NCBI RefSeq assembly: GCF_038595065.1
Contig: NZ_CP152003.1
Location: 3,576,001-3,640,000, forward strand
Length of the DNA: 64,000 nt
Source: Sutcliffiella sp. FSL R7-0096
GTDB lineage: Bacteria; Bacillota; Bacilli; Bacillales; Bacillaceae_I
Direction of reading: 5' to 3'
Part shown: positions 11,259-38,600 of the stretch, one piece after another
How positions within the stretch are numbered: position 1 is the stretch's first letter
How the letters are laid out: each line of letters begins with the position of its first letter
The notes under the pieces: model-generated
Databases searched by the model: none
What the model was told of the DNA's origin: nothing
What the model saw: the letters and a program-made list of their open reading frames with translations, nothing else
Program-made: the position numbers and the translations under genes

Positions 11259-11259
11259 C

Positions 11260-11556: not shown

Positions 11557-11711
11557 CACTATCCTGTAGATAAGGAGCAGAATAGTTGAATAAATTAAAC
11601 AAGAACAACCACATCTATGACTGTTCCTGTTGTTTTGGTTTTGGATTCTTTGTTGTTTTAAATGAATTTCTAACCTTATAAACATGATAATTGTAATTGA
11701 GTTTTCTTTAC

Positions 11712-12427: not shown

Positions 12428-12589
12428 GAAATCCTCCCAATTTTATGCTTTTAAATATATTTAATTATAACAAAGTTTATAAGCCCTCTTACAGTATGAG
12501 GCTGGTAGCATTAGAACATTTTTTCACAAGCACTTTAGAAATATAGTGTTGTGTTGCACAGTATTACGTCTACTCCGCATATAATGAGT

Positions 12590-13490: not shown

Positions 13491-13906
13491 TGAGCGAGCG
13501 ACATAGAGGGTTCAGTAATCGTTTTAAACAACACTGTATAGACAAAGAATATTCCGATGTAACGGTGGGTCATTATTTCAAACAGTCAGCCAGGTTTATG
13601 GACTACCTTTCTTCTCAGAAAGTTATGGATTGTAAAGGTATTAATCTACAATACTCCTAAATTTTCAGCAGCTTATTATTTGAATCCTACTAGTAGATTT
13701 TTTTCGTGATTACCATAAAATTCTGAATATTTAATGAAAAACTAGCAATTGTAGATTCATTCGACAGTAAATATCTACATTTTGCTAGTTTTAATTATTA
13801 AATGCATTCTCTCTCTAATTGTTATTTATATATGCTTTGATCGAAATATTTTCATAATAACATTATTTCGGGTTTAAATATGAATTTTAAATTTGTGTAC
13901 TTCTAT
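13491..13906. other. Intergenic scar with a long hairpin
   Basis: No gene is supported. The left part (to about 13640) is the unidentified sequence next to the intron breakpoint. At 13737-13791 a long inverted repeat (AAAACTAGCAA then GTAGA, paired with TCTAC then TTGCTAGTTTT) can act as a terminator for the znuA-like gene that ends at 13907 on the minus strand. Confidence 0.5.
13737..13791. terminator. Hairpin after the metal-binding lipoprotein gene
   Basis: Arms AAAACTAGCAA/TTGCTAGTTTT plus inner GTAGA/TCTAC, with T/A tracts on both sides, so it can work in both directions. Confidence 0.6.
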
Positions 13907-14857
13907 TCAATCCAAACCTTCACCTAACACCTTAATATTATTTTTCATTATTGAAAGATAATCCTCTTTTGCTTCACGTCTGTCTTCAGAAAGTGACTCT
14001 AAATTGTGCAAGAAAAGCGGACTTGTTCCAGTTTCATTTTGGACAGTTTTGGCAACTTTATTGTTCAAATTTTCCTCGAAGAATAAATGCGTAAGTCCTT
14101 CTTCTCCCATTAAGTTAATGATTTCAATCAACTGTTGTTGTGAAGGTTCATCACTTGGTGATATTCCACTGATGCCTATTTGCTCAAGACCATATCTTTC
14201 TTCCCAATATCCGTAAGCAGAATGGGATACAATAAATTTCTTTTTTTCGGCACTTTTTATCATTTCATTGAATTCTGCATCCAGCTTTTCTAAATCCCTT
14301 TTCAAAGAAATAAAGTTTGCCTCAAAAATCTCTTTTTCTTCTGGATATAATTCTACTAGTGATTTTTTGATATTGTCAGCTACTTCTATTGAACGTATAG
14401 GGTCTAGCCAAAAATGAGGGTCCACTTCACTCTTTTCATTTTCATGTTTTTTTTCATCATCGCTATGTTGATCTTTTGCTGAGCTTTTTAATAGCGTAAT
14501 ATTTTCAGTTGCATTTACAATCATTACCTGCTCATCCTCTAAAGATTCAATAATAGACATGGCAAAACCTTCTAAACCTGTACCTGAATAAATAAAGGCA
14601 TCTCCTTTTGCCACTTTCACCATCTCACTAGGCGATAAATCAATGGAGTGTGCATCGGAGCCAGGAGGTACTATATTCTCAATGGAAACCAAACTGCCAC
14701 CAATCCTTTTTGTAAAATACTCTAATGGATAAATTGTTGTAAATATTGTAAGTTGTTTGTATTCCTTATCTTCATTTATTGATTGATCTGCAATACACCC
14801 ACTAATTAAACTGATAATGATAAAAGATATCATCAAAAATTTTATTCTCTTATACAT
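13907..14857 (-). CDS. Zinc-type ABC transporter substrate-binding lipoprotein
   Basis: 316 residues of the cluster 9 (ZnuA/AdcA/TroA) family. The signal peptide ends in the lipobox ISGCIA. Metal ligands expected in the family are visible: H in PPGSDAHSID, H in EVDPHFWLDP, H in FIVSHSAYGYW, and the acidic end in GTSPLFLHNLESLS. A His/acid-rich loop (KDQHSDDEKKHENEKSE) precedes the second ligand, the mark of zinc members. No permease or ATPase gene is adjacent, so it either supplies a distant ABC system or scavenges zinc. A Zur-like box sits 32 bp before the start. Confidence 0.88.
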   Translation of the reverse strand: MYKRIKFLMISFIIISLISGCIADQSINEDKEYKQLTIFTTIYPLEYFTKRIGGSLVSIENIVPPGSDAHSIDLSPSEMVKVAKGDAFIYSGTGLEGFAMSIIESLEDEQVMIVNATENITLLKSSAKDQHSDDEKKHENEKSEVDPHFWLDPIRSIEVADNIKKSLVELYPEEKEIFEANFISLKRDLEKLDAEFNEMIKSAEKKKFIVSHSAYGYWEERYGLEQIGISGISPSDEPSQQQLIEIINLMGEEGLTHLFFEENLNNKVAKTVQNETGTSPLFLHNLESLSEDRREAKEDYLSIMKNNIKVLGEGLD

Positions 14858-14888
14858 GACATTACTCCTCTAAATGATGTATTTCCAT

Positions 14889-14906
14889 AAGTAATCATTA
14901 CGATTT
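14889..14906 (-). promoter_or_regulatory. Zur-box-like operator
   Basis: On the minus strand the sequence is AAATCGTAATGATTACTT, which matches the Bacillus Zur consensus (TCGTAATNATTACGA core) except in the last bases of the right arm. It is 32 bp upstream of the zinc-binding lipoprotein start, where a repressor would block transcription. Confidence 0.7.
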
Positions 14907-14940
14907 ATAAATTATTTCTACTTAACCATAAACTTAATAT

Positions 14941-15675
14941 TTATATGGTCCAATAAGTTAAAGTATCCCATATCCCTAAAACAACTAAAAATGCACCGGC
15001 AACTTTTTGTATTATACTTCCCACACGTTTTCCTTTCTTCATTACCATGCCACCAGCTTCGAAAAACCATATTAGAAACATTAATATAAGTATTGGCACC
15101 GTAGTTCCTATCGCGAATACGGAAGGAAGAACCATACCATATGATTCCGTTAATGCAACCGGCATAAGGCTTAAAAAGAATAGGACGAACATGGTCGGAC
15201 AAAATCCTAAGGAAAAACTGAAGCCTAACAAAAAAGATCCCCATTTTTTTGATTTAATATTTTCACCAGCAATATTGAGTATAGGGAGGTGCCAATTCAT
15301 TTTTAGATATCCTAATAAAAATAGTCCTACCGCAATCAACAGCGGTCCAGTCAATTTCCGTATCCAGGGAAAATAAAGGGTCAGTGAAGACTGAATTTCT
15401 CGACCAAATAACCAAATTAAAAGCCCAAGAGATGTAAAGGCTACAATTTTACCTAAAGTGAATAATATGACATCCCCCCAAGCCACTTGTTTATCAAGCG
15501 ACTTTTTTCCAAAAAGGGTTATTGCCCCAATATTCCCAGTCAATTGGCAAGGAACCATCGATCCCACAATACCTAACAAAAAGGCATATAAAAGTGTAAC
15601 CTCTTTAAATGAAATCGCAACATTCGAAAGTGGGACTGTAATGGAGTTTGTAATCCCATTCATAATTTCGTACAT
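14941..15675 (-). CDS. CcdA/DsbD-like heavy-metal-associated membrane protein
   Basis: 244 residues, six or seven membrane helices. It has the two hallmarks of the DsbD_2/SafE-like group: GSMVPCQLTGN in the first helix and GFSFSLGFCPTMFVLF in the fourth, each with a Cys-Pro type site. CcdA relatives carry reducing equivalents across the membrane; a metal-transfer role is inferred from context. The start is set at MYEIMNG by comparison with the broken paralogue at 53731-54160, which starts MYEIFNK. A copper-type regulatory motif lies 50 bp upstream. Confidence 0.78.
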   Translation of the reverse strand: MYEIMNGITNSITVPLSNVAISFKEVTLLYAFLLGIVGSMVPCQLTGNIGAITLFGKKSLDKQVAWGDVILFTLGKIVAFTSLGLLIWLFGREIQSSLTLYFPWIRKLTGPLLIAVGLFLLGYLKMNWHLPILNIAGENIKSKKWGSFLLGFSFSLGFCPTMFVLFFLSLMPVALTESYGMVLPSVFAIGTTVPILILMFLIWFFEAGGMVMKKGKRVGSIIQKVAGAFLVVLGIWDTLTYWTI

Positions 15676-15724
15676 TAAACCACACCATTTCATACTGTTT
15701 TTATCTTAATTGTAAGATAAAAAT

Positions 15725-15740
15725 GTGCAGATATTATGAA
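15725..15740 (-). promoter_or_regulatory. Copper-island motif, site c
   Basis: Minus strand TTCATAATATCTGCAC, followed by a TTACAAT-like -10. It shares ATAAT-TCTGCA with the sites before the multicopper oxidase and YdhK and stands 50 bases before the start codon. Confidence 0.5.
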
Positions 15741-15753
15741 GAAACACACTTAT

Positions 15754-16653
15754 TCATTTATTTGTAACTATTACCTTTCCTACCATCCCAGCTTTCTTAT
15801 GACCTGGAACCGTGCAATAAAATTCATATTCCCCTATCTCAAGAGGGGTGAAACGAATCTCATTTTTACTATTTGCAAGAGCGTGCAGATGCAAAGGTCC
15901 CTTTAAATTATGATGACTACTTTCCATTGTTTTTACTGATAAGCCTTTTATCTCTATATCATGTTCCACTCCATCCATGTTGTTTAATTGAAGAATGATT
16001 TCCTCTCCTACTTTTGCCACAAAAGATGCAGGTGTGTAAGCATTGTTTACCGCCTGAACAGAAACTACCTTTGGATCTTTTGTGCCAGTAGCACGATGCT
16101 GATGTCCATGATCTGCTGATGGTTTTACTGCACCATGACTTAATTGAAAACCAAGAATCAGGTATGCACTAATTCCTACCATTGAGAAAAGTGGCTTTAA
16201 ATACCACGATTTATTAAACTTATTTTGATCTTGGTTAGATTGACAAAACACAAAAAACAATAATAACGAACAAACACTTATCGTTAACAATAGGATTATC
16301 AAGAAGAATACATCCTTAGTTGAAATCATTTCTCCCAGCATAGCACCCATCATACCACCCATTAAACCTGACATGGCTCCTTCAATAGACGTAAGTAATC
16401 CGAGTCCTACACCCGCGAGTATACCAGCAACCATACCTAAAAATAGTGCAATTATTGTGGAGCTGAATAAGTCCCCTTGGTACATTACGCCAAATGTCAA
16501 TCCAACTATCAAACTTATGGTCATTGCATAAGTCATGGATAAAATCATTCCCGCCATGGAAGGCAATCGTTTCTTCAATATTCTTGAAAGTACTAGGATT
16601 ATACCTATTTCCATAATCAATGTTAATAAAATATACCAATAAAATACATGCAT
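15754..16653 (-). CDS. Membrane protein with C-terminal cupredoxin domain
   Basis: 299 residues from the ATG at 16653, chosen because GAGGGGAGGGG stands six bases upstream. About six helices fill residues 1-170 (including a Gly/Met-rich stretch GAMSGLMGGMMGAMLG). A linker rich in His (ADHGHQHRATG) leads to a cupredoxin (about 195-299) with type 1 copper ligands: the first His in DGVEHDIEI and the C-x-x-x-x-H-x-x-x-x-M loop CTVPGHKKAGM. It should hold copper outside the membrane. Divergent from the Csp gene; a copper-island motif lies upstream. Confidence 0.8.
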   Translation of the reverse strand: MHVFYWYILLTLIMEIGIILVLSRILKKRLPSMAGMILSMTYAMTISLIVGLTFGVMYQGDLFSSTIIALFLGMVAGILAGVGLGLLTSIEGAMSGLMGGMMGAMLGEMISTKDVFFLIILLLTISVCSLLLFFVFCQSNQDQNKFNKSWYLKPLFSMVGISAYLILGFQLSHGAVKPSADHGHQHRATGTKDPKVVSVQAVNNAYTPASFVAKVGEEIILQLNNMDGVEHDIEIKGLSVKTMESSHHNLKGPLHLHALANSKNEIRFTPLEIGEYEFYCTVPGHKKAGMVGKVIVTNK

Positions 16654-16724
16654 CGCGTACCCCTCCCCTCTAACATATCTATGCAAATGATGGTGGGACA
16701 TGTATGCTGTAGTTTTACAATACT

Positions 16725-16740
16725 GTGCAGATAATAAGGA
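16725..16740 (-). promoter_or_regulatory. Copper-island motif, site d
   Basis: Minus strand TCCTTATTATCTGCAC, upstream of the cupredoxin membrane protein (72 bases before its chosen start). It shares TCTGCAC with site c. Confidence 0.45.
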
Positions 16741-16819
16741 TTTTTATTTTTAAGTATTAGGAAGTTAGCTGGAGGGGTACACCATTAATGTTTAATAAAT
16801 CTTGAAAGGAGTTTTTCCA

Positions 16820-17155
16820 TTGTTAATTAAAAATGAATATCAAGAATGTTTGGACGCCTGCTTGGCCTGTATGGAAGCCTGTAATTTTTGTTTTAATGCT
16901 TGTTTAAACGAGAATGATGTAAAAATGATGGCTGCCTGTATCCGACTAGATCGCTTATGTGCAGATACTTGTAGTCTTGCAGCGACAGCTATTCAATCAG
17001 ATAGCCCATTCAAGGAAGAAATCTGCAGATTATGTGCCGAAATCTGTGCTGCCTGTGGAGAAGAATGTAGTAAACACACACACGAACATTGCCAAATTTG
17101 TGCGGACGCATGTTTTCGATGTGCAGAAGCTTGCAGAAGAATGATTACTGCATAA
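16820..17155 (+). CDS. Csp-type four-helix copper-binding protein (DUF326)
   Basis: 111 residues from TTG at 16820, selected because AAAGGAG is eight bases upstream. It is packed with Cys in helical spacing: CLDACLACMEACNFCFNACL, then CADTC, CRLCAEICAACGEEC and CQICADACFRCAEAC. This is the Csp family, tetrameric four-helix bundles that store many Cu(I) ions in their core. There is no signal peptide, so it is a cytosolic (Csp3-like) store. It precedes the two-component system and is followed by a strong terminator, so it is a single-gene unit. Confidence 0.9.
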   Translation: MLIKNEYQECLDACLACMEACNFCFNACLNENDVKMMAACIRLDRLCADTCSLAATAIQSDSPFKEEICRLCAEICAACGEECSKHTHEHCQICADACFRCAEACRRMITA

Positions 17156-17168
17156 TGTACTTTTTAAG

Positions 17169-17193
17169 ACACGCCACTTATTGGCGTGTTTTT
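17169..17193 (+). terminator. Rho-independent terminator after csp
   Basis: ACACGCCA-CTTAT-TGGCGTGT followed by five T. Confidence 0.9.
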
Positions 17194-17269
17194 AATTTTG
17201 TTTTTTCCACTCACTACCCCTATAATACATACATCCAATTCAGTTAATAATGACAATTTTTTTGTTGCT

Positions 17270-17285
17270 TTCTGTCAATCTGCAA
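17270..17285 (+). promoter_or_regulatory. Copper-island motif, weaker site e
   Basis: TTCTGTCAATCTGCAA keeps the TCTGCAA core of the other sites and is followed by a GATAAT -10-like box. It stands 55 bases before the kinase start and suggests autoregulation of the two-component system. The left half is poorly conserved. Confidence 0.35.
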
Positions 17286-17339
17286 GCTTTCTCGATAATT
17301 TCCGGATATTCTAAAACTATTACAAAGTAGGTGATGTAC

Positions 17340-18695
17340 TTGAAGTTCTCAACCAAGCTAGGGCTTTGGTTCTTCTTTTGTATTTTAATTATTGAAACTG
17401 GTTCCATGCTTTTCCTTCATCAAAATGTCGTTCAATCCCTCGTTGATAATGAATTGAAGTCATTATCGGCAAGAGGAGATAGCCATCGAGATGTTCTGGA
17501 AGAATCTTTTATCGACAATACACTTCAACATATCGTATTAATGGAATCGAAAACCGATACGGAAGTGGTGATAACAGACCAAAGTGGAAATGTTATCGAA
17601 TCTTCCATTGCCATCAATGACGAAATCACCTCCATTATTTTGCCAAGTACGCATGAAGATATGATCATTGAAGCAGATTGGGAGTCACAATCCTATATAG
17701 CCACTGCATCCCCATTCAGTTCGAATAGTGGGGTTAGGGGAACTGTCTTTATGCTAAAAAGCACTAACCAAATGAAAAGCTTGATTACCAACTTAAACCA
17801 CCATTTCGGGATTGCTGTTATCATTATTTTATTTTTCCTGGTAATTACGAACCTCATCTTAGTGAAGCTTTTAACCAAACCCTTAGTATCCATGAAAGAA
17901 GCAACAAAGCGAATCAATGAAGGAGACTTCACGGTAACCCTTCCTGTGAAATCCAAAGATGAAATTGGAGAGTTGGCGAAATCCATTAAAACATTGGCAA
18001 GTAACCTAAACTACTTGCAACAGGAGCGAAAAGAATTTTTGGCAAGTATATCCCATGAGCTACGGACTCCACTCACCTATATCATCGGTTATGCTGATAT
18101 TGGTCAAAAGCATAATTTAACGGATACTCAAAGGAATGAATATCTGAAGATTATTCATGAAGAATCGATTCGAGTATCAAACCTACTTGAGGATTTGTTC
18201 GAATTAGCCAATATGGATCAGAATTCTTTTTCGATTGCAAAGGAAGAAATCCAACTAGGGAAATTCTTGCAGACTATTTTTGAGAAGACTTATCCCGTAT
18301 TCTCCAATTCCGGCATTGGTCTAAAGTTTAACTGCAAACAGAACTGCTTCGTGAATATAGATCCTTTGCGATTTGAACAAGTAGTACAGAATATATTGGA
18401 CAATGCACTGAAGTATTCAGACAGAGGGACCACAACCATCGAATTAAGCAAAAAGGATAATATCTGCATACTCTCCATCTCTGACGAAGGTAAAGGAATT
18501 CCTGATGATCAAATCCCATATATATTTGATCGCTTATTCCGAGTGGAAAAATCCCGATCTCGCCTTACAGGTGGAGTTGGTCTTGGGTTATCCATCGTAA
18601 AGGAAATTGTAGATGCCCATGATGGGGAGCTGAAGGTGAACAGTGAAATTGGTGTAGGTACAACTGTATCGATTCTATTAAAGGAGGCAAAATAG
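17340..18695 (+). CDS. Sensor histidine kinase of the copper island
   Basis: 451 residues from TTG at 17340 (GTG at 17331 is an alternative). Helix 1 (about 6-26) and helix 2 (about 155-177) enclose a roughly 130-residue outer sensor domain. HAMP (about 178-232), HisKA with the phosphorylated His in SISHELRTPLTY, and HATPase with N-box NILDNALKYS, DEGKGIP and GGVGLGLSIVKEIV are complete. The gene ends four bases before the regulator start. Sensing of copper or an envelope signal is inferred from the surrounding genes. Confidence 0.85.
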   Translation: MKFSTKLGLWFFFCILIIETGSMLFLHQNVVQSLVDNELKSLSARGDSHRDVLEESFIDNTLQHIVLMESKTDTEVVITDQSGNVIESSIAINDEITSIILPSTHEDMIIEADWESQSYIATASPFSSNSGVRGTVFMLKSTNQMKSLITNLNHHFGIAVIIILFFLVITNLILVKLLTKPLVSMKEATKRINEGDFTVTLPVKSKDEIGELAKSIKTLASNLNYLQQERKEFLASISHELRTPLTYIIGYADIGQKHNLTDTQRNEYLKIIHEESIRVSNLLEDLFELANMDQNSFSIAKEEIQLGKFLQTIFEKTYPVFSNSGIGLKFNCKQNCFVNIDPLRFEQVVQNILDNALKYSDRGTTTIELSKKDNICILSISDEGKGIPDDQIPYIFDRLFRVEKSRSRLTGGVGLGLSIVKEIVDAHDGELKVNSEIGVGTTVSILLKEAK

Positions 18696-19391
18696 ATGAA
18701 ACAAATACTACTGATAGATGACGAACAAAGAATGCTAGACCTTTTATCCCTCTATTTAACCCCGCACGGGTTTACCTGCATCAAAAAGACTACTGCTTTG
18801 GAGGGGATTCTGTTTCTGAGTGATCATGAAGTGGACCTCATTATTCTTGATGTCATGATGCCAACCATGGACGGTTGGGAAGCATTAGCTGCAATCCGAG
18901 ACTTTAGTAAAACACCTATAATCATGCTCACAGCTAGAAATGATGACACCGATATGATAAAGGGCTTAAAGAACGGTGCAGACGATTACATTTCCAAGCC
19001 ATTTAATGAAGATGTGCTTGTAGCAAGGATTGGAGCTGTGCTCCGTCGATCGGCCACAGAAGGGCCAACGGAAAAGCCATTACACTTCAAAGGTTTATCA
19101 CTTGACTCTCTTTCTTACAAATTATCATATAATGGACAGCCTATTTCCATTACACCAAAAGAATTTGCCTTACTGGAGCTATTTTTAAAGTATCCGGATA
19201 AGGTCTTTTCACGGGACCATTTACTTTCTACACTTTGGGAATTGAAAGCAGAGACGGAAAACCGCACCATTGACTCCCATATTCGGAATCTTAGAGAAAA
19301 ACTGCGACAAGTTGGTTTTAATGTGGACAGGCATTTAAAAACCATTTGGGGAGTTGGGTATAGGTGGAATGATAAATTTGAATCGAATTAG
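18696..19391 (+). CDS. OmpR-family response regulator
   Basis: 231 residues. The receiver domain has the acidic pocket DDEQ at the N-terminus, phospho-Asp in LIILDVMMPTMDGW, T in PIIMLTARND and K in YISKPF. The C-terminal winged helix ends ENRTIDSHIRNLREKLR and GVGYRW. It abuts the kinase gene and is its partner. I infer that it binds the TCTGCA-type elements upstream of several copper genes, since OmpR-type activators bind next to or over the -35, which is where those elements lie. Confidence 0.88.
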   Translation: MKQILLIDDEQRMLDLLSLYLTPHGFTCIKKTTALEGILFLSDHEVDLIILDVMMPTMDGWEALAAIRDFSKTPIIMLTARNDDTDMIKGLKNGADDYISKPFNEDVLVARIGAVLRRSATEGPTEKPLHFKGLSLDSLSYKLSYNGQPISITPKEFALLELFLKYPDKVFSRDHLLSTLWELKAETENRTIDSHIRNLREKLRQVGFNVDRHLKTIWGVGYRWNDKFESN

Positions 19392-19412
19392 TAAATCCAT
19401 GGAGGTTTAGAG

Positions 19413-20345
19413 ATGAACAAGATAAAGAATTTTATTATGATAACAGTTATAAGTATGCTAGTTGTTGGATGTTCAACTAAAGAGCAAAATAAAAATAATG
19501 ACTACTTTATAGAGGCAAAGGAAGAAACCATAAATCATATCCACGGGATTGGTTACTTGGGTGATGAGAAAGACTTAATTCTAGCAACCCATCATGGCCT
19601 TTTACGCTTTTCTGAAGGAAAATGGTACAAGACTAGTAAAAATAATCATGATTATATGGGATTCCAAGCAACAGATGAGCAATTTTTTTCCAGCGGCCAC
19701 CCTGAGCTAGATTCCGACTTAAAAAATCCCTTAGGGCTTATTAAAAGTAGTGATCAAGGTGCTACCTTAGAAAGAATTGCTTTTTATGGGGAAATTGACT
19801 TCCACTATCTTGCGGCCGGATATAAGAGTCAAACATTGTACGTTTTTAATGAGCACGAAAATTCCCTGAAACAAGGTCTTCATTATTCGGTAGATCAAGG
19901 GGAAACATGGGAAGCTAGTTCCATGAAAGGAATATCTGCCAATGCCATCGGAAATATAGCTGCACACCCTACTTCTTCAGAGGATGTTGCTATCTCCACC
20001 AATAAAGGATTATTTATTTCTTCTAACTTTGGTAATGAATTCAAGTTGCTAACCAGCTCAAATTCTGTGACAACAGTGGAATATCAGGAGGACAGTCTGA
20101 TTTACTTTATCCTAGAAAATAATGAAACCAAATTAGTAAAGTACAATTTTAAAAATGAAATAACTGACGAGTTGTCCCTACCTGAAGGGATTTCCAGTAA
20201 AAATCCCATTATGTTCATTGCCACTAATCCAGAGAATAGGTCAGAAATAACAGCCATCTCCTTGAATAATGACATTTATCAGTCCAACAATACTGGAGAA
20301 AGCTGGAATACATTAGTTGAAAAAGGTAACGTCTCTAATGAATAG
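19413..20345 (+). CDS. BNR/sialidase-like lipoprotein (F510_1955 type)
   Basis: 310 residues. The signal peptide ends in the lipobox VVGCST. The mature part is a beta-propeller-like repeat protein: IHGIGYLGDEKDLILATHHG, then Asp-box-like turns SSDQGATLER, SVDQGETWEA and NTGESWNTL. The family is annotated as glycosylhydrolase-like by fold only; catalytic sialidase residues are not evident and the family occurs in metal resistance clusters. It is likely a surface protein of the copper operon. Its end overlaps the next gene by 8 bp. Confidence 0.75.
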   Translation: MNKIKNFIMITVISMLVVGCSTKEQNKNNDYFIEAKEETINHIHGIGYLGDEKDLILATHHGLLRFSEGKWYKTSKNNHDYMGFQATDEQFFSSGHPELDSDLKNPLGLIKSSDQGATLERIAFYGEIDFHYLAAGYKSQTLYVFNEHENSLKQGLHYSVDQGETWEASSMKGISANAIGNIAAHPTSSEDVAISTNKGLFISSNFGNEFKLLTSSNSVTTVEYQEDSLIYFILENNETKLVKYNFKNEITDELSLPEGISSKNPIMFIATNPENRSEITAISLNNDIYQSNNTGESWNTLVEKGNVSNE

Positions 20346-20988
20346 AAGCCGTAAGCATATTGTTATCGGAGTCTGTTCCTTTTTGCTAAGTTATCTGATC
20401 GTACAAACCAGAAATGAATGGGCTCCCCTGCATGCTTGGAACCGTGCATTCGCAGATGTATCCTTATTCATGCTTGGACTTGTCATGGTTATAGGGCCAA
20501 TCGTACGTATCCTCCCAGTCTTGAAGGGGCTGGTTGCATGGCGAAGATCGTTAGGGGTATGGTCTGGAATTCTTGCGCTTATTCATACGATTATCATTCT
20601 AGATGGATGGGTTGAATGGGATTTTACACGATTGTTTTTCATTTTCACTCCATTTGGTCAAGAATGGGTATTGCATCCTGGTTTCGCACTCGCTAATGCA
20701 ATCGGAATAATTGCGGTGCTATACTACCTTATACTAATGATTACATCGAACAATCTGAGTATTAAAGTATTAGGTAATTCAGCCTGGAATTATTTACAGA
20801 GTAAAACAAGCACTCTTTATCTTTTGGTTTTGTTGCATACTCTTTATTTTTTGTATTTTCACAAACCGGAAAATCCTAACTGGATGAAAGGTCCTTTTAT
20901 AGCCATTATTGTTTTGATTTTCTTATTTCAAATAGCAGGATTTGCATGGACCATTCGAAATAGAATCAAAAAAAAAGTAAACAAATAA
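20338..20988 (+). CDS. Ferric-reductase-like (MsrQ-type) membrane protein
   Basis: 216 residues from the ATG at 20338, inside the end of the previous gene. Six membrane helices with histidines placed for heme: LHAWNRAFAD, ALIHTIIILDG, LLHTLYFLYFH, and the RRSLG-W-G motif of the ferric reductase-like transmembrane domain. It probably moves electrons across the membrane, in the style of MsrQ, perhaps to keep copper or Met residues reduced. Last gene of the kinase-regulator-lipoprotein operon; a terminator overlaps its stop codon. Confidence 0.75.
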   Translation: MNRSRKHIVIGVCSFLLSYLIVQTRNEWAPLHAWNRAFADVSLFMLGLVMVIGPIVRILPVLKGLVAWRRSLGVWSGILALIHTIIILDGWVEWDFTRLFFIFTPFGQEWVLHPGFALANAIGIIAVLYYLILMITSNNLSIKVLGNSAWNYLQSKTSTLYLLVLLHTLYFLYFHKPENPNWMKGPFIAIIVLIFLFQIAGFAWTIRNRIKKKVNK

Positions 20989-21007
20989 AACTTGTTTACT
21001 TTTTTTA
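20973..21007 (+). terminator. Terminator overlapping the stop codon
   Basis: AAGTAAACAA-ATAAAAC-TTGTTTACTT then a T tract; the left arm includes the last codons of the membrane protein gene. Confidence 0.85.
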
Positions 21008-21047
21008 TTGGACTGTCACAAATTGTTACTTTTTCTAATAATGGAAT

Positions 21048-21063
21048 TCCATAATTTCTGCAA
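21048..21063 (+). promoter_or_regulatory. Copper-island motif, site a
   Basis: TCCATAATTTCTGCAA, identical over 16 bases to site b before ydhK. In both cases 47 bases separate the motif from the start codon. Confidence 0.6.
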
Positions 21064-21110
21064 TCATTTTTGATAACATTCTCCTTGAAACTACTTAAGG
21101 AGGAATAATC

Positions 21111-22676
21111 ATGAAACTAAAGCTGATAGCTTTACTATCTTTTACGGTAATATTTTTGGCGGCATGTTCGGATATGAGTAACATGGATCATGGTGAAATG
21201 AATATGAGTGATTCTTCAACTGAACAAGAGAAAGAAAAACTCCCTGAAACAAAAACTACCTCAACTGAAGTATTCTCTGAGAATGAAATAACATTGGTTG
21301 CAAAAGAGGCAGCTCATCAATTAAACAATAGTACAGTGGTAAACGCCTGGACCTTTAATGGTTCTGTTCCTGGTTCTCAAATACGTGTTCAGGAGGGCGA
21401 AGATATAACAATTCATCTAAAAAACGAACTTAAAGATCCTGTTTCCATTCATTGGCATGGCCTTCCTATCCCAAATGCAATGGATGGAATTCCCGGTGTG
21501 ACCCAAAACGCTGTTCAGCCTGGCGAGACCTTTACCTATAACTTTACTGCCACAGTTACCGGGACATACATGTACCATACACATCAAGACGGTGTCAATC
21601 AACTTGATAAGGGCCTATACGGTTCTTTCATTGTAGAACCTGCTAATAAGACATATGACAGAGATTACTCATTAATGTTGGACGAGTGGATGAGTGACCC
21701 TAAAGGCTCTTCCATGAGTGATATGGAAGACATGGACCATGGAAAAATGAATGATAAAGAAAAAGAAAATCAGGACAGTTCAATGTCCATGGAGGGCATG
21801 GGCCATAACATGGACGGCTACGACATCTTCACCATTAACGGAAAAAGCGAAGATTTGATTGAGCCGTTAAAAGTGAAAGAAGGGGAAAAAGTTCGAATAC
21901 GGCTTGCGAACATAGGGTTCATGTCACATAAAATACACCTTCATGGGCATCAATTTAAAGTAGTAGCAATTGATGGTCAGGAACTGAACGCTCCACAAGA
22001 ACTAGAAAATCAATTATTGTCTATTGCACCTGGTGAGAGGTACGATATTGAATTCATTGCTGACAATCCAGGTGTTTGGTACCTTGAATGCCATGGGGAA
22101 ATGACAGGAACAGAAGGAATGAAAACAAAAATACAATACGAAGGATATACGGAATCCAAAGATAAGCCAAATCCAAAAGAAAAACTACCTGAGTTTAACT
22201 TTAATGACTATGGTGAAGCAAAAAGTGGATTTTTTGAGATGAACCAACAGTACGATCTGGAGTACACGATGAATTTAGATACCGAGATGGAAAAGAAGGA
22301 GATGGTGTATACCATCAACGGAAAAACTTTTCCTGAAACAGAGAATATCATAGTAAAAGAAGGAGACAATGTCAAAGTGAAATTGGTCAACAATTCAGCC
22401 ACAGATGACCATCCTATGCACCTTCATGGCCAATTTTTCCAAGTACTAAGCAAAAACGGAAAACCAATAGAAGGATCTCCAGTCATTAAAGACACCATCA
22501 ATGTAAAACCCGGTGAAGAATATGAAATCGCATTTAAAGCAGATAATCCAGGAAACTGGCTCTTCCATTGCCATGATTTGCACCATGCCGCAGCTGGAAT
22601 GGTGACTCAAGTAAAATATGAGGGTTTTAAACCTGATTTCAATCCAGATCCAGAAGCGAATAATAAACCAGAGTAA
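21111..22676 (+). CDS. Multicopper oxidase lipoprotein (copper tolerance type)
   Basis: 521 residues. The lipobox is FLAACSD. Three cupredoxin domains carry all four copper-binding motifs: HWHGLP, HTHQDG, HPMHLHGQ and HCHDLHHAAAGM (type 1 Cys, His, Met). A Met/His-rich insert sits in the middle (about 195-235, SMSDMEDMDHGKMND and SMSMEGMGHNMDGYD), as in Cu(I)-oxidising CueO/CopA enzymes. It should oxidise Cu(I) to Cu(II) at the outer membrane face. Monocistronic between two terminators; motif site a lies in its promoter. Confidence 0.92.
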   Translation: MKLKLIALLSFTVIFLAACSDMSNMDHGEMNMSDSSTEQEKEKLPETKTTSTEVFSENEITLVAKEAAHQLNNSTVVNAWTFNGSVPGSQIRVQEGEDITIHLKNELKDPVSIHWHGLPIPNAMDGIPGVTQNAVQPGETFTYNFTATVTGTYMYHTHQDGVNQLDKGLYGSFIVEPANKTYDRDYSLMLDEWMSDPKGSSMSDMEDMDHGKMNDKEKENQDSSMSMEGMGHNMDGYDIFTINGKSEDLIEPLKVKEGEKVRIRLANIGFMSHKIHLHGHQFKVVAIDGQELNAPQELENQLLSIAPGERYDIEFIADNPGVWYLECHGEMTGTEGMKTKIQYEGYTESKDKPNPKEKLPEFNFNDYGEAKSGFFEMNQQYDLEYTMNLDTEMEKKEMVYTINGKTFPETENIIVKEGDNVKVKLVNNSATDDHPMHLHGQFFQVLSKNGKPIEGSPVIKDTINVKPGEEYEIAFKADNPGNWLFHCHDLHHAAAGMVTQVKYEGFKPDFNPDPEANNKPE

Positions 22677-22699
22677 AATTACCACAACTCATAAGGATA

Positions 22700-22732
22700 C
22701 CAAAGCCTCTTTCACCACGAAAGAGGCTTTGG
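22700..22732. terminator. Strong shared terminator
   Basis: CCAAAGCCTCTTTC-ACCAC-GAAAGAGGCTTTGG, a perfect 14-bp stem between the oxidase and the converging YwmB-like gene. The T-run is short on both sides. Confidence 0.8.
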
Positions 22733-22778
22733 TTATGCCTGTCTGGCGGAAAACTAGATGTAAAAATATATTTTTCTC

Positions 22779-23501
22779 CTAGTATTCTTCTGTAATGATA
22801 GGAATTCCGATTGTAATTTGTAAGTTTGAATTGGACGGTTCCCTTCTTAAAGCCACTTGAAGATTAAATCGCTTATTGTTGGTGGAAGGTAAACTGAAAG
22901 CCCAATCCTTGTTAAAGGCTGACACCGAAACAAGGTTTTTTTCTTCAAGCCCTTCCACTTTATCAGCAGATAGGTTTTCCAAAAGTAAATTTGCTTTTAC
23001 ATTTAAATCCGAGTTGATATCAACATCTAATAAACTTCCCTTCACTGTAAAGTATATACTGTTCTTCAATTCAATATCATTAACGAAGCTTCTATAATCC
23101 TTTTCTGACCATCCTCCTCTTGTATAACTGTAAGTCTGTACTACTTGATATGAATGATCCTCCTTATAAGCCGTAACCGTTATTCTTTCCCTTTCGATGT
23201 CACTCTTCATATTAGTTCCTACAATTAAATAATGATGATCCTGTTCCATGTCGGTGGACCATTCGAATTTTGTGTAATCTTTCTTTAACTTCGCTTCTAT
23301 TTCCTTGATTACATCCAAATTATTTACATTAAGTTCCTCACGGGAATAAATCGTCCACTCATGTATTATTACTCCCTGATTTTTAAGTATGTTAATAGTA
23401 GATAATAACTTATCCTTTTCATCCATGGATTCCCTATATTGACTATCTATTACCATGAAACCAGCTATAAAAATAAGAATAATGTATAAAAGCATTTTCA
23501 C
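22779..23501 (-). CDS. YwmB-family protein
   Basis: 240 residues with an N-terminal membrane segment or signal (LLYIILIFIAGFMVI). The rest is the two-lobed fold called YwmB/TATA-box-like: GVIIHEWTIYSRE, LKKDYTKFEWS, YTRGGWSEKDYRSFV. The function is unknown; in Bacillus it is an exported or membrane-tethered protein. It is convergent with the oxidase gene and divergent from lgt. Confidence 0.7.
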   Translation of the reverse strand: MKMLLYIILIFIAGFMVIDSQYRESMDEKDKLLSTINILKNQGVIIHEWTIYSREELNVNNLDVIKEIEAKLKKDYTKFEWSTDMEQDHHYLIVGTNMKSDIERERITVTAYKEDHSYQVVQTYSYTRGGWSEKDYRSFVNDIELKNSIYFTVKGSLLDVDINSDLNVKANLLLENLSADKVEGLEEKNLVSVSAFNKDWAFSLPSTNNKRFNLQVALRREPSNSNLQITIGIPIITEEY

Positions 23502-23655
23502 GATTCCATTTCACCTCCCGATTATAACCCTGCTTATAAATAAATTTAAGCAGATAAATATTCGTTGAATTTCTGTTACAAATAATGCACAAATTCTGGA
23601 CAAGTTTTCGCTAAACTTAATTGATTAAATCTTGATAGAATAGGAGCTTCCAGAT

Positions 23656-24474
23656 ATGAATTCTTTACAGGCTATAGATAGAGTAGCATTCGAAATTGGA
23701 CCATTTACAATCTATTGGTACGGAATAATTATTGGGATTGGAGTACTTCTAGGTTGGTACCTTGCAACCCAAGAGGCAAAGAAATTAGGGTTGAGTAAGG
23801 AAATATTTTCAGATCTACTAATTTGGGCAATTCCTATCGCAATTGTCAGTGCAAGATTATATTATGTCGCATTCAATTTGGATTATTATTTAGATAATCC
23901 AGGAGATATCTTTGCGATATGGCAAGGTGGTATCGCCATACATGGTGCTCTGCTTGGAGGTGTCATAGTTGCTTATATATACACCCGAAAAAAGCGTGTT
24001 TCCTTTTGGCAATTAGCAGATATAGCAGCCCCTAGCATCATTTTAGGTCAAGCAATTGGAAGGTGGGGGAACTTTATTAACCAAGAAGCACACGGTACTG
24101 AAGTTTCACGATCCTTTTTGGAGGGGTTATATCTCCCTAATGTCATCACGAATCAAATGTTTATTGCGGGAGCCTACTACCATCCCACATTTTTGTATGA
24201 ATCACTTTGGAATTTAGCTGGATTTGGTGTTTTGTTATTTTTGAGAAGACTCCCCATCAAAAGAGGTGAAATTTTTCTCTCTTACTTGATTTGGTACTCA
24301 TTCGGAAGATTCTTTGTTGAGGGTTTAAGGACAGATAGCCTTATGATAGGAGAGGTCCTAAGGACAGCCCAGATTCTTTCCTTATTAATCATTCTTCTTG
24401 CCATTTTTCTAATTTGGTTCAGAAGAAAAAGTGGCTATGCAAAAATTCTTTATCTTAATGATTACAGAAAATAA
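23656..24474 (+). CDS. lgt: Prolipoprotein diacylglyceryl transferase, probably a second copy
   Basis: 272 residues with the Lgt signature [13 protein letters not shown], the conserved [13 protein letters not shown] near the start, [12 protein letters not shown] and [10 protein letters not shown]. Seven helices are expected. It attaches diacylglycerol to lipobox Cys. Housekeeping lgt is normally next to hprK in Bacillus, so this one inside a copper island is likely an extra copy serving the many lipoproteins here (oxidase, YdhK, BNR protein, ZnuA-like). Confidence 0.92.
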
Positions 24475-24484
24475 CTTTTTCCAT

Positions 24485-24522
24485 AAAAAATAGCTTGTAG
24501 TATAACGCTACAAGCTATTTTT
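24485..24522. terminator. Bidirectional terminator
   Basis: AATAGCTTGTAG-TATAACG-CTACAAGCTATT flanked by A6 on the left and T5 on the right; it serves both lgt and the converging ydhK. Confidence 0.9.
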
Positions 24523-24528
24523 ATGGCT

Positions 24529-25113
24529 TTATTCTTCTGATGATAATTCACTTTCTGTTACCCACTTATGATTGGTTACTTCCTCTCCACTGTCTTTCAA
24601 AGTGAAGTCTACCATATAAACGGTGGTTTGTTCCGCTGAATCAATAACTGCAGTTGCACCCTCCATACCTTCCATATGTTCAGCTTCTACCTTTACTTCA
24701 GCACCAGCTTCATAAGGTTCTTCCTGTCTATCCGCTATCTCTTCGTGGATGATCCATTTATGATCTTCGACTCTTTCTCCACCATCGGTTGGGTCATAAG
24801 ATATGGTATATACCGTTGTATCATATGCTCCAACAATCGTAGCTTCTGCACCTTCCATACCTGGCATGTGAGCCTCAGTAATAACCGCTGTACTTCCAAC
24901 TGGGAATGCAGGACTTTCTGCTTCCTCCAGTCCTTCAGGGACTTCACCGGAACCGGACATATCCATTCCGGAATGGTCCATTCCGGAGTGTTCACCTTCT
25001 GAATTTTTCTCTTCATTTTCGTTTGAAGCTGTATCGTTTCCGTTATTCGAGCATGCAGATAATACTAGCAATCCAGCAAGAGCACCAAACAATATTAGCT
25101 TTTTCCAACTCAT
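24529..25113 (-). CDS. ydhK: YdhK-type lipoprotein (two DUF1541 domains)
   Basis: 194 residues from the ATG at 25113, which has GGAGGAGGAAA upstream. The lipobox is VLSACSN, then a low-complexity, Met/His/acid-rich linker (EGEHSGMDHSGMDMSGSG). Two DUF1541 repeats follow: HMPGMEGAEATIVGAYDTT...DHKWIIHEEI and HMEGMEGATAVIDSAEQTT...NHKWVTESEL. The Met/His motifs suggest copper binding outside the membrane; the family is common in copper and arsenic islands. A TATAAT -10 and motif site b are upstream. Confidence 0.85.
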   Translation of the reverse strand: MSWKKLILFGALAGLLVLSACSNNGNDTASNENEEKNSEGEHSGMDHSGMDMSGSGEVPEGLEEAESPAFPVGSTAVITEAHMPGMEGAEATIVGAYDTTVYTISYDPTDGGERVEDHKWIIHEEIADRQEEPYEAGAEVKVEAEHMEGMEGATAVIDSAEQTTVYMVDFTLKDSGEEVTNHKWVTESELSSEE

Positions 25114-25144
25114 TTTTGTTTCCTCCTCCAAAATTAATATAATT

Positions 25145-25150
25145 ATTATA
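25145..25150 (-). promoter_or_regulatory. -10 box of the ydhK promoter
   Basis: Perfect TATAAT on the minus strand, 10 bases downstream of motif site b. No good -35 is visible, so an activator bound at the motif would fit. Confidence 0.6.
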
Positions 25151-25160
25151 CCCAGAAAAT

Positions 25161-25176
25161 TTGCAGAAATTATGGA
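25161..25176 (-). promoter_or_regulatory. Copper-island motif, site b
   Basis: Minus strand TCCATAATTTCTGCAA, identical to site a, 47 bases before the ydhK ATG. Confidence 0.6.
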
Positions 25177-25250
25177 CTTACTCGATTTCATTCTATATTT
25201 CACAAAAAATTAAAGATCCAGTTAAGCAACCTTTAACTTCTTCCATAAAC

Positions 25251-26558
25251 TTAGAAAGAAATGTATTTCCTCGGGTTCACCGCATTCGATTTGGCATTAT
25301 TCCAATTACCTTCATGCAGCTCGAAGTGAAGGTGGTTTCCAAAAGAATAACCTGTGTTGCCCATTCCTCCTAGATACTCCCCTTTTTCCACATATTGTCC
25401 TTGACTGACAGAAAGATTATCCATATGAGCATACACGGAAGTATAAGTCTGTCCATTAACACTATGTGTAATGATTACCCAATTTCCATAAGAACTACTA
25501 TAAGATGCATTTGTTACATAGCCATCAGCAACAGCTACAATTGAAGTTCCTCTTGGTGCAGCAATATCTATTCCATAATGGTAACGGGGTTGACCATTTA
25601 ATACATCATATCCAAATTCAGTAGTAAATACCCCATTTGTAGGGGCAGTCCATACTCCTTCACTGACAGGAATATGAACTGGGCTATTTACCTGTTGTGG
25701 TTTAGAAGTTGCTACTTTTTGCTTTTGTTCTTCTGCAGCTTTCCTTTCTCGTTCCTTTTGCCTTGCTAATTCAACTAATCGCTCCTGCTCAGCTATAATG
25801 CTCTCTTCAATACCTTTCTCTAACTCGTACAATTCATTGCTCTTTTCTTCAAGGTCAACCTGCATTTGTTCTATTTTTTTCTGTTGAGCTGTAAGACTGT
25901 TGATAAGTTCATTTTTTTGTTCCTTTTGTGAACCTAAACTTGCAATAAACTTATCTAGTTCTTTCTTTTGAGTTTCCAAATTTACTAATTCTTCCCGTAC
26001 TTCTTTTTCTTTTTGTGTTAATGAATCCTGTTCTTTCTTTTGTTCGTCAATTATATCGCGGTCTGCCTGTACGAGTGTACTTACTGCTGTTAATCGATTT
26101 ATGAGGTCAGCAAAGTTCTCAGAATTCAAAATAACTTCTAGATAGTTATTATATCCTCCGTTTGTTTGAAAGGCACGAGCCCGATCTTCTAATAACGCTG
26201 CCCTCTTTTCCAGCTTTTCTTTCAGTACCTCTATGTCTTTTGTCAACTTTAAAATATTTTCATTCGTTTCTTTAATATTTCCATTTACGGATTTTATTTC
26301 TTTATCCGTATTGGATATTTCCATGTCTAACTTTTTAATTTGGGCTGTCAAGTCATTTTGTTGAGCTATAATACTATCAATTTTTTTATTATTGTTCTCG
26401 ATACTTCTATCAATTGACTGACGTTCTTGCTGAACATCCTGTTTTTTCTGCTTTAAACTATCAATCTCTTCAGCTGAAGTGGAGTGAGGAAAAAAAGCAT
26501 TACTAACTGACAATAATGCAACTACAAAATATCCAAGAAACCTTTTATTTTTATTCAT
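25251..26558 (-). CDS. Coiled-coil M23 peptidase (murein hydrolase / EnvC type)
   Basis: 435 residues. A signal peptide (about 1-29, ending STSAEE) leads to a long coiled coil (about 30-270) rich in E, K and Q, then an M23 LytM domain (about 310-435) with zinc ligands in HYGIDIAAPRG (H and D) and GNHLHFELHEG (HxH). It cuts peptide cross-bridges of peptidoglycan or activates an amidase. It is followed on the upstream side by SpoIIP, so two wall hydrolases are side by side at the edge of the copper genes. Confidence 0.88.
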   Translation of the reverse strand: MNKNKRFLGYFVVALLSVSNAFFPHSTSAEEIDSLKQKKQDVQQERQSIDRSIENNNKKIDSIIAQQNDLTAQIKKLDMEISNTDKEIKSVNGNIKETNENILKLTKDIEVLKEKLEKRAALLEDRARAFQTNGGYNNYLEVILNSENFADLINRLTAVSTLVQADRDIIDEQKKEQDSLTQKEKEVREELVNLETQKKELDKFIASLGSQKEQKNELINSLTAQQKKIEQMQVDLEEKSNELYELEKGIEESIIAEQERLVELARQKERERKAAEEQKQKVATSKPQQVNSPVHIPVSEGVWTAPTNGVFTTEFGYDVLNGQPRYHYGIDIAAPRGTSIVAVADGYVTNASYSSSYGNWVIITHSVNGQTYTSVYAHMDNLSVSQGQYVEKGEYLGGMGNTGYSFGNHLHFELHEGNWNNAKSNAVNPRKYISF

Positions 26559-26902
26559 TTGAAAACTCCTGTTATAATTATTTCCTCTTCCTATGTATGG
26601 ATAGCAAATTAATGAGGATTCGAATGCATTTTGTGTCGAAAAACAGAATCTATTATCGAACTTCCTTATCTTAACACTGTCTAGTGCTTAGTAGATAACC
26701 GTTGTCTTACAAATTCTTCTCATGCTAGTAACATTTTCTAGCATTTTTTGTGCAGAAAAAAACAGTCTCTTAGCGCAGGCTAAAAAACTGTTGTCTCTAT
26801 CATAAATTTCCTATATATATTTTCTCAGTTTAAACTAGTATATATTAGAATACATTATCAGCAAACATATACTATACTCAATTCTTGGTATACCTTCGTA
26901 TG
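26559..26902. other. Intergenic between two wall-hydrolase genes
   Basis: No gene is supported. It contains a terminator for spoIIP (26761-26792), a small inverted repeat GCTAG/CTAGC at 26724-26742, and a TTTCTGCACA-type string near 26752-26762 (minus strand) that loosely recalls the copper-island motif. Downstream of it lies the promoter region of the M23 gene, where I see no clear -35/-10 pair. Confidence 0.4.
26761..26792 (-). terminator. Terminator after spoIIP-like gene
   Basis: AACAGT-CTC-TTAGC-GCAG-GCTAA-AAA-ACTGTT, followed on the minus strand by TTTTTTTC. Confidence 0.7.
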
Positions 26903-28060
26903 TTAAAAATCACCAACATCTTTATCTTCCCAAACCAGTTCACTAAAATACTTAGCAAATACTTCCACAGAATTATCTAACTCCACCATAGTATTATCTA
27001 CTCCCCCTACTTCTAGTAGAATAGATCTATCGGATAAATCTTGGTTATAAATCCCGTCACCTTCGGATTTATTCTTTATAACTACACCTCTACTTAAACC
27101 CGGAAAGTGTTCTTCTATAGCATAGTGGAGATTACTTGCGAAATCCAGATTCTCCTTGAAATTTTTATTCTCTTCTCCAACAATAAACAATAGTTTAGCG
27201 TAATCTTTACCATTTATTTTAATATGAGTTTTATCTTTTCTTACAGAATCTCTGTGAATATCAATCAAATATTTCAGTTCATTATTGGAACTTAATACTT
27301 CTTCAACCACCTCTCTTGAGTACTGATATGAGTTATAATAATTCCAGCCCCGTGAAAGTAATTGTTCAGTTACATTAGTAGTGTTATGTTTGGCGACTAT
27401 TCCATGACTTAATAACTTCCCTTTTAGCATATTTCCTACAGCTATAACGTTAACTTTAGAATTATTACTTGTTGCCTCATCAGGTGTTTTGGCACCCTTT
27501 AACAAAGGTAAAAATGATTCCCAACTATGCGATTGATAAATGTAAACTAATTCCTTTTCATTCGTTTTTTCTGGTGCAGGAGGTGGAGATATTTCTTCTT
27601 CTATTTCTTCTAATTGTTCATGTGCAATTTCCCTCTCCTTCAATAATACTTCCATGGGAGGAGAGGATTCATGTGGAAGAGTAGTATAGTTCGTCCCTTC
27701 TCCTGCAATATGTATCCTGTAGTCAAATGCATAAAAGCCTGGAATTTCATTTCCTAACAAACTCCTGACATCATTAGGTTTAATATTAGTGGCTAATTGA
27801 AATATCATACTTTGAATCGGTATTTTATCTACCTCTACTCCTTTTCCAATCATATAATGATTTTGGCTTTGAAGTGCACTTAAAAAAATATTTGTATTAT
27901 TTATCTTGTATAACCAAGTGCCAATAATTTCTGAAGAAAGCTTATTTGTAAAAGCAGTACTTATTACAGTTACCAATAAAAGCGATATGATGATAGACAA
28001 AAAAGTACTATTTAAATAGAAGACCAAAATATTATTAGATGAACGTTTAGTAGAATTCAT
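26903..28060 (-). CDS. spoIIP: SpoIIP-like stage II sporulation wall hydrolase
   Basis: 385 residues. One N-terminal membrane anchor (about 14-36, FYLNSTFLSIIISLLLVTVI) and an outer SpoIIP domain with the catalytic motifs YQSHSWESFLP (His and Glu retained) and LIDIHRDSV. SpoIIP is an amidase/endopeptidase that thins septal peptidoglycan during engulfment. As the housekeeping spoIIP lies next to gpr, this is probably a paralogue carried by the island. A proline-rich segment (EEEISPPPAPEKTN) links the two parts. Confidence 0.82.
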   Translation of the reverse strand: MNSTKRSSNNILVFYLNSTFLSIIISLLLVTVISTAFTNKLSSEIIGTWLYKINNTNIFLSALQSQNHYMIGKGVEVDKIPIQSMIFQLATNIKPNDVRSLLGNEIPGFYAFDYRIHIAGEGTNYTTLPHESSPPMEVLLKEREIAHEQLEEIEEEISPPPAPEKTNEKELVYIYQSHSWESFLPLLKGAKTPDEATSNNSKVNVIAVGNMLKGKLLSHGIVAKHNTTNVTEQLLSRGWNYYNSYQYSREVVEEVLSSNNELKYLIDIHRDSVRKDKTHIKINGKDYAKLLFIVGEENKNFKENLDFASNLHYAIEEHFPGLSRGVVIKNKSEGDGIYNQDLSDRSILLEVGGVDNTMVELDNSVEVFAKYFSELVWEDKDVGDF

Positions 28061-31778: not shown

Positions 31779-32462
31779 ATGGTGAAAAAAATTGTTATGC
31801 CCGCACTTATCTTATTGATTCTGCTCATTGTGGGCGGCTGGTTTTTTATGAGGGTTTTTGGCGGCATGAACGGCAACATGCCTGGACAAGGGGGAGGAAT
31901 GATGGATGATGGTATGATAGGTAACGATAACGGAGAGGTTGAAGATATGAAGAATGACTCATTCGCTGATGGAGGAACCTCTCTTCCCATTCCCCCCATC
32001 CTAAAAGATGAGAATCCGGACCCAGGAAAAGCAGAGTTCACTCTTGTTGCCCAAAAAGGAACCATGGAGTTTATAGAAGGCAAACCAACAGATACGTTTG
32101 GATATAATGGCGATTACCTAGGACCCGTGATTCGTGTAAAAACTGGAGATGATGTTTCGATCAAGGTGAAAAATGAGATTGATGAAGCAACCACTGTCCA
32201 TTGGCATGGACTAGAAGTTGACGGCGACCAGGATGAAGGCCCTCATTCCGGTATCCAGCCTGGAACCACGTGGAATCCGCAATTCAAAATTGAACAAAAT
32301 GCTGCTACATTATGGTATCATCCCCATCTGCTCCATGAAACTGGCGAACATGTATATAAAGGACTTGCTGGTCTATTTATAATTGATGATGAAGATAGTG
32401 AGAACCTGGACTATGACCTGCTTGCCCATTTGCTCCCAGTTCTTCTTAAAACTTCTGTATGA
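31779..32462 (+). pseudogene. Multicopper oxidase, N-terminal fragment
   Basis: The first about 210 residues are the start of a multicopper oxidase: an N-terminal membrane anchor (about 5-27), a Gly/Met-rich linker (MNGNMPGQGGGMMDDGM), then VHWHGLEVDG and LWYHPHLLHETGEHVYKGLA GLF, the first two copper motifs. Near 32410 the sequence stops matching (after SENLDYD) and enters the 3' end of an opposite-strand C39 gene, so domains 2-3 with the type 1 site are lost. Truncated by a deletion or recombination. Confidence 0.85.
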
Positions 32463-38583: not shown

Positions 38584-38600
38584 GTGTTTCCCCACTCCTA

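Follow-up and report, generated by a model that had tools for sequence, protein, structure and literature searches.

A tandem 11-bp element adjoining the -10 box as candidate operator-promoter of a copper-related two-component regulon in Sutcliffiella and other Bacillales

Introduction

In Bacillales, the control of copper is attributed chiefly to repressors in the cytosol (CsoR), and the repeats of the two-component regulators HssR and YclJ are of the TTCATA type with an 11-bp period. The present work concerns a 64,000-nucleotide stretch of the genome of Sutcliffiella sp. FSL R7-0096 (NZ_CP152003.1, positions 3,576,001 to 3,640,000, hereafter the window), in which an island of copper-related genes encodes a sensor histidine kinase, an OmpR-type response regulator, a multicopper oxidase (MCO) and a YdhK lipoprotein. 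A first-pass annotation had noticed a 16-mer, TCCATAATTTCTGCAA, before the MCO and ydhK genes and proposed a local copper regulon. We report that these sites belong to a longer element, two 11-bp repeats adjoining a -10 box, and propose, with a probability of roughly three in four, that it serves as operator and promoter for a copper regulon governed by an extracytoplasmic copper sensor kinase and an activating OmpR-type regulator.

Several described systems invite comparison. The operator of CopRS from Corynebacterium glutamicum is a direct repeat with an 11-bp period (TGAAGATTTnnTGAAGATTT), and the regulator of this two-component system (TCS) activates an adjoining cluster with an MCO and a copper ATPase (PMC3140484). 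The island element is likewise a direct repeat of 11-bp period, but the repeat sequence is another one, and where two divergent clusters share a single CopRS site that is located far upstream of one cluster (PMC3140484), the island has separate sites before several genes, including that of a DUF1541 lipoprotein, at the -35 position. Measured against the CusRS/CopRS systems of Gram-negatives (NCBIfam TIGR01386 and TIGR01387), the island kinase and regulator fall under both curated cut-offs (187.7 against 292.55 and 159.8 against 279.2). In Staphylococcus the copper locus is under CsoR control; S. aureus copXL resembles the island as a copper-resistance locus with a YdhK-type lipoprotein, CopL, reported to be 51% identical to Bacillus subtilis YdhK, but relies on a copper-released repressor and a palindrome (PMC5947656), whereas a membrane sensor kinase and an activator are proposed for the island. 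In the window, a CsoR-like palindrome (one pattern, up to 2 mismatches) has 2 matches against 2.45 expected by chance and none at the island promoters; CsoR control of these promoters was set aside, no site being above chance. HssR and HitR also recognise direct repeats, but the signals of HssRS and HitRS are heme and envelope damage (PMC3968170), that for the expression of Bacillus YclJK is low oxygen (PMC7961091), and the targets named in the available text of these reports are unrelated to copper. Among the matches listed by our literature search, which left most subscription journals outside its scope, no copper TCS of Bacillales was found.

Results

Architecture of the element

The 16-mer occurs twice in the window, at 21048-21063 (+) and 25161-25176 (-), with zero mismatches and, as first described, 47 nt from the start codon in both cases (ATG 21111 of the MCO gene and ATG 25113 of ydhK); these are the only 2 exact copies in the 4,908,118 bases of the genome. 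With up to 3 mismatches the window holds 7 matches against 2.19 expected, a number reached by 1 of 100 shuffles. Comparison of the upstream regions of related loci revealed that conservation extends beyond the 16-mer into the -10 box, and the 16-mer was abandoned as functional unit in favour of an 11-bp tandem repeat, of which it covers one unit and five bases of the next. The full element consists of two head-to-tail 11-bp repeats, T(G/C)CATANTTTC-TGCAWANTTTY, followed by 4 nt and a TANNNT -10 box.

The period was counted with a loose unit word, [CT][CGT]CA[AT]ANTT, in 47 loci (positions 12001-26000 of the window, 10 genus loci and 36 others, relatives being kept in). Pairs of unit words exactly 11 bp apart numbered 19, against two each at 7 and 18 and one each at 27, 28, 30 and 33, and the reversed text held no 11-bp pair; since no other spacing exceeded two pairs, the element is read as a head-to-tail 11-bp repeat. 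Its phase was determined in 71 loci, which hold 119 tandem sites ahead of target genes, with identical 44-nt stretches taken once and overlapping registers of triple repeats entered separately. TANNNT stands exactly 4 nt after the second unit in 95 of these 119 sites (64 of the 95 from outside the genus) and in only 26 of the 154 tandem sites elsewhere in the same loci. The next offsets are 15 (20 sites) and 9 (16 sites), the former being one repeat further and thus expected for triple repeats. At ydhK, TATAAT lies 10 nt downstream of the 16-mer and no -35 is visible, because the hexamer 17 nt upstream of TATAAT is ATAATT. Target promoters of an OmpR/PhoB regulon are expected to carry direct repeats, head to tail and about one helical turn long, as they do here; the position of the repeat next to the -10 box, with no -35, supports the OmpR-type activation suggested by the first-pass annotation.

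Specificity in the genome and sites in the window

An architecture pattern, YCATAATWTCTGCAMNNNTTTNNNNTANNAT, built from the ccdA-like, MCO and ydhK sites and allowed up to 3 mismatches, matches 4 places in the 4.9 Mb genome: the three building sites, by construction, and the ydhK gene of a second locus at 1.0757 Mb. Its reversed control has 0 matches, and the position of the one added match before another ydhK argues against sites scattered at random. A second matrix, built from 14 sites of which none is of this island type, ranked the window sites in the order ydhK, MCO, ccdA-like, lgt and kinase (38.0, 30.8, 27.2, 16.6 and 14.7 bits), the best score in five random 64 kb sequences being 11.7. 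Kinase scores are probably underestimates, since the kinase seeds of the first matrix and 3 of the 14 sites of the second, all kinase sites, are aligned in a register that lies one repeat upstream of the better one.

The first-pass annotation had listed five sites. The letters of its additional 16-mers at 15725-15740 (-), 16725-16740 (-) and 17270-17285 (+) are correct, as is the 49-nt spacing at the ccdA-like gene, provided that ATG 15675 is the start. The ccdA-like and kinase sites hold up, whereas the cupredoxin site scores 6.8 bits. At the kinase gene the best register lies one unit (11 bp) downstream of the quoted one; it was derived from genus relatives, several of which carry TAAACT 4 nt past the second unit, and kinase promoters hold up to three units. 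A site before lgt had been missed. The cupredoxin site was rejected as a forward operator, its score being at noise level and TANNNT missing at the usual phase; instead, the degenerate element is kept in relatives in reversed orientation, upstream of the DUF326 gene and pointing away from it. Its CTGCA core is present in 10 of 11 genus loci and lost in one genome (G006). The reversed element is kept even in genus loci (L057-L067) where no cupredoxin gene was found.

Distribution within Sutcliffiella

The genus set comprised 16 Sutcliffiella genomes, the named relatives being B. tianshenii, Sutcliffiella deserti, Bacillus sp. RO1 and Sutcliffiella horikoshii. The kinase is found at 55% identity or more in 10 of the 16, and a 25-mer form of the element has 13 matches in 10 of the 16, all 13 before ydhK, with 0 in the control. 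Of 11 genus loci, 10 also have the element ahead of their kinase gene. One genome (G001) possesses kinase and element, the latter more than 3 mismatches from the 25-mer, and five genus genomes are without kinase, 25-mer and ydhK (E <= 1e-30). The same genome as the window carries a second locus (G000:C1:1075000-1079000, L057), with a 61% identical kinase, a regulator, a DUF326 protein and ydhK under the same element. The sites are thus conserved in related loci, and the purely local regulon first envisaged gives way to one with a second locus in the same genome.

Distribution beyond the genus and co-occurrence with the kinase

The element is found ahead of ydhK, kinase, oxidase or ccdA genes at numerous loci of Bacillales, and the kinase is present at E <= 1e-100 in at least 155 of 397 sampled Bacillales genomes. 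The 25-mer has 8 matches in these 397 genomes against one control match; of the four whose loci were inspected, one stands before a ydhK (G057), one in a kinase locus (G214) and two in no recognised copper locus (G265, G382), the other four being in G029, G097, G108 and G178. Applied to 36 loci from outside the genus, the matrix trained on the genus reached at least 14 bits at 28 of 84 target genes versus 11 of 360 other genes, and each of 30 column-shuffled matrices at 0 of 84. By class, this level was attained by YdhK (7/11), CcdA-like (3/4), MCO (3/7), kinase (13/36) and F510_1955 (2/12) genes, and by 0 of 1 ferric-reductase-like gene. Of the 11 other genes, eight encode His-rich lipoproteins, multicopper oxidases or a regulator. 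His-tailed lipoproteins with HGGH ends lie under the element in other genera (L115 11414-12715, L129 5921-7150, L139 8610-9872, L143 5579-6907), and are likely members of the regulon.

Co-occurrence was assessed in 80 ydhK upstream regions, hand-chosen from the listed ydhK matches, at a threshold of 14 bits. Where the genome has the kinase family, 32 of 48 ydhK promoters carry the element; where it does not, 2 of 32 do (Fisher 2.6e-8, a guide only, since genomes are not independent). Eight f39/g41 promoters, first filed as kinase-negative by an initial screen that scored 4 candidates per genome at a strict cut-off, were regrouped as kinase-positive after their element scores were known, the earlier count being 24/40 versus 10/40; the kinase and regulator genes near them are 38-42% and 51-54% identical. 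The genomes of the 32 kinase-negative promoters have no listed full-length kinase relative above 34% among the candidates scored, which numbered up to 44 in each. The cleanest contrast falls within a single genus: G246 has no kinase match (E <= 1e-45), no regulator in the 16 kb around ydhK and no element, while the element is present in eight relatives whose ydhK has kinase and regulator genes close by. As the element and the kinase family co-occur, the regulator at 18696, named at the outset as the candidate reader, gains support.

Sensor kinase and response regulator

Models and fold matches place an extracellular PAS/Cache-like sensor domain at about residues 28-155 of the kinase (numbered from TTG 17340), in which H49, H64, M68 and M138 are invariant in 39 of 39. 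This conservation suggests that the sensor domain could bind copper. The best fold matches of the domain include WalK and citrate sensors, and a search with the whole kinase returned mainly kinase catalytic cores. The regulator exceeds the cut-offs of PF00072 and PF00486, the receiver and winged-helix domains of the OmpR/PhoB type, and the pair is linked to copper-handling genes, as expected of a copper-responsive TCS. Two loci (L126, L135) hold kinase relatives without a recognisable adjoining regulator.

Other genes of the island and its surroundings

The features are collected in Table 1. YdhK has the tandem DUF1541 of the YdhK/CopL family, in two stretches. The DUF326 protein is above the Pfam DUF326 cut-off and scores 38.4 against NCBIfam TIGR04401 (Csp1), for which the cut-off is 100. 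The F510_1955 lipoprotein gene is a frequent neighbour of the kinase/regulator pair in related loci, and the ferric-reductase-like gene probably belongs to the kinase operon. Bacillus sp. RO1 matches positions 7340-28692 at 99.98% identity, and another genus member matches 10417-27879 at 99.8%; two phage-integrase-type (tyrosine) recombinases lie at 56862-59928. Because of this near-identity in two genus members (L023, L058) and the presence of the recombinases, the island has probably moved recently by horizontal transfer. A second, short MCO-like open frame at 31779-32462 appears truncated. The region 35582-51922 encodes two heavy-metal P-type ATPases, CopC, CopD and a ZIP transporter (Pfam), and the matrix scan found no element above the random level within it.

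Table 1. Candidate operator-promoter sites and genes of the island (positions in the window)
Feature	Position (strand)	Composition or evidence	Rank
ydhK operator/promoter	25145..25176 (-)	TCCATAATTTC (25176-25166), TGCAAATTTTC (25165-25155), TGGG, -10 TATAAT (25150-25145)	1
MCO operator/promoter	21048..21079 (+)	TCCATAATTTC (21048-21058), TGCAATCATTT (21059-21069), TTGA, -10 TAACAT (21074-21079)	2
ccdA-like operator/promoter	15709..15740 (-)	TTCATAATATC (15740-15730), TGCACATTTTT (15729-15719), ATCT, -10 TACAAT (15714-15709)	3
lgt operator/promoter (new)	23586..23617 (+)	TGCACAAATTC, TGGACAAGTTT, TCGC, -10 TAAACT; from window sequence only	4
Kinase-operon operator/promoter	17270..17312 (+)	weak unit 17270-17280, TGCAAGCTTTC (17281-17291), TCGATAATTTC (17292-17302), CGGA, -10 TATTCT (17307-17312)	
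Degenerate element between cupredoxin and DUF326 genes	16719..16740 (-)		
Sensor histidine kinase	17340..18695 (+)	Pfam HAMP/HisKA/HATPase_c; conservation, models, fold matches	
OmpR/PhoB-family response regulator, proposed reader of the element	18696..19391 (+)	Pfam Response_reg and Trans_reg_C	
YdhK/CopL-type DUF1541 lipoprotein	24532..25113 (-)	PF07563, 168.5 bits; PDB 4mdw YdhK, E 8.6e-57	
Multicopper oxidase	21111..22676 (+)	Pfam	
CcdA/DsbD-like membrane protein	14941..15693 (-)	Pfam; likely start 15675	
ZnuA-like gene	13907-14857	same strand as the ccdA-like gene and after it	
Membrane-anchored cupredoxin	15754..16653 (-)	start inferred from S. deserti relative	
DUF326 four-helix-bundle protein (copper storage type)	16820..17155 (+)	Pfam DUF326	
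F510_1955-family beta-propeller lipoprotein	19413..20345 (+)	NCBIfam NF045728 above cut-off	
Ferric-reductase-like membrane protein	20338..20988 (+)	below Pfam cut-off	
lgt, presumed prolipoprotein diacylglyceryl transferase	23656..24474 (+)	open reading frame; name by recognition	

Discussion

We propose that the kinase (17340) would bind surplus copper outside the membrane through its conserved His and Met, autophosphorylate and then phosphorylate the OmpR-type regulator (18696). Two regulator molecules would lie head to tail on the two 11-bp repeats, one DNA turn each; the repeats, ending 4 nt before the -10 box, would stand in for a -35, and the bound regulator would recruit RNA polymerase in a class-II-like activation by an OmpR-type dimer. 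The genes switched on would be the kinase operon itself and those of the YdhK lipoprotein, the MCO and the CcdA-like membrane protein, and probably lgt. Regulator binding and activation rather than repression are predicted here from sequence, whereas copper as the signal is suggested by the gene content, the conserved His and Met, and the findings on S. aureus CopL (PMC5947656).

Several observations weigh against this model. The genome G006 keeps ydhK, DUF326 and the ydhK element, has neither kinase nor regulator in the surrounding 19.9 kb and lacks any full-length kinase relative; this locus (L149), with its ydhK element intact and the DUF326 side degenerate, may represent regulon decay after loss of the regulator, or else counts against the model. 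The paralogous system of the host could read the same sites, so that either system might act on either promoter set. Beyond the genus, the forward element is found at 0 of 5 cupredoxin and 0 of 8 DUF326 genes. In the co-occurrence sample, 16 of the 48 kinase-positive ydhK promoters are below threshold, and two kinase-negative genomes (G259, G358) are above it, with a different, 35-37% identical kinase/regulator pair nearby. Of the 10 promoters whose kinase lies far from ydhK, 4 have the element and 6 are below threshold; G025, G070 and G097 have the element with the kinase on another contig or 45 kb off, as a trans-acting regulator would lead one to expect. A plain tandem-word score separates the groups poorly (rank test p 0.035, in the grouping before the f39/g41 move) and was discarded as a classifier, values of at least 18 occurring in 11/30, 4/10 and 10/40 promoters of that first grouping. 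Finally, the PAS/Cache fold is common to many non-metal sensors.

This last point bears on the rival explanation that survives best, although we consider it unlikely: the pairing of regulator and element would be right, and the signal would be another metal such as silver or zinc, heme or envelope stress, the copper genes forming part of a broader response. The WalK and citrate-sensor matches of this generic fold, the ZnuA-like gene after the ccdA-like gene and a few element-bearing genes elsewhere without an obvious metal role would fit such a response; the recurrent neighbours, however, are YdhK, MCO, cupredoxin and DUF326 genes, the sensor His and Met are invariant, and in S. aureus the YdhK-type CopL acts in copper resistance (PMC5947656). 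It is still less probable that another regulator reads the element, for instance that of the paralogous system or a copper repressor of the one-component type, the island regulator having other targets. The G006 locus and the paralogous locus under the same element are the points in its favour, to be set against the co-occurrence with the kinase family, the element before the kinase gene itself in nearly all genus loci, and the chance-level CsoR-like matches in the window, none at an island promoter; the CsoR-like regular expression also matched 0 of 80 ydhK upstream regions, albeit as an expression without a positive control. Recent promoter duplication or chance without common regulation, as two perfect 16-mer copies 4 kb apart in one mobile island might suggest, is very improbable given that their flanking sequences differ, that the ydhK element persists next to kinases of 55-63% identity as well as in other genera, and that the 11-bp period, the genome-wide specificity and the mostly fixed phase to the -10 box disfavour it.

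The central idea of the first-pass annotation stands, on broader support than it had claimed. We retain the reading of the element as operator-promoter of a copper regulon, which looks lineage-wide rather than local; the regulon would be new and its mechanism of a known kind. On balance, though with less assurance than for the island itself, we favour the existence of a Bacillales-wide family of extracytoplasmic copper-sensing TCS with its own operator code, controlling YdhK/CopL, multicopper oxidases and partner lipoproteins (F510_1955 propellers and His-tailed proteins) as one regulon alongside cytosolic CsoR. If this is true, Bacillales would possess a second, outside-facing copper response, built on a membrane sensor that is conserved and an operator that can be read; the structurally solved YdhK would gain a regulator and a condition, and the regulon, including its unknown lipoproteins, could be read from sequence in many genomes.

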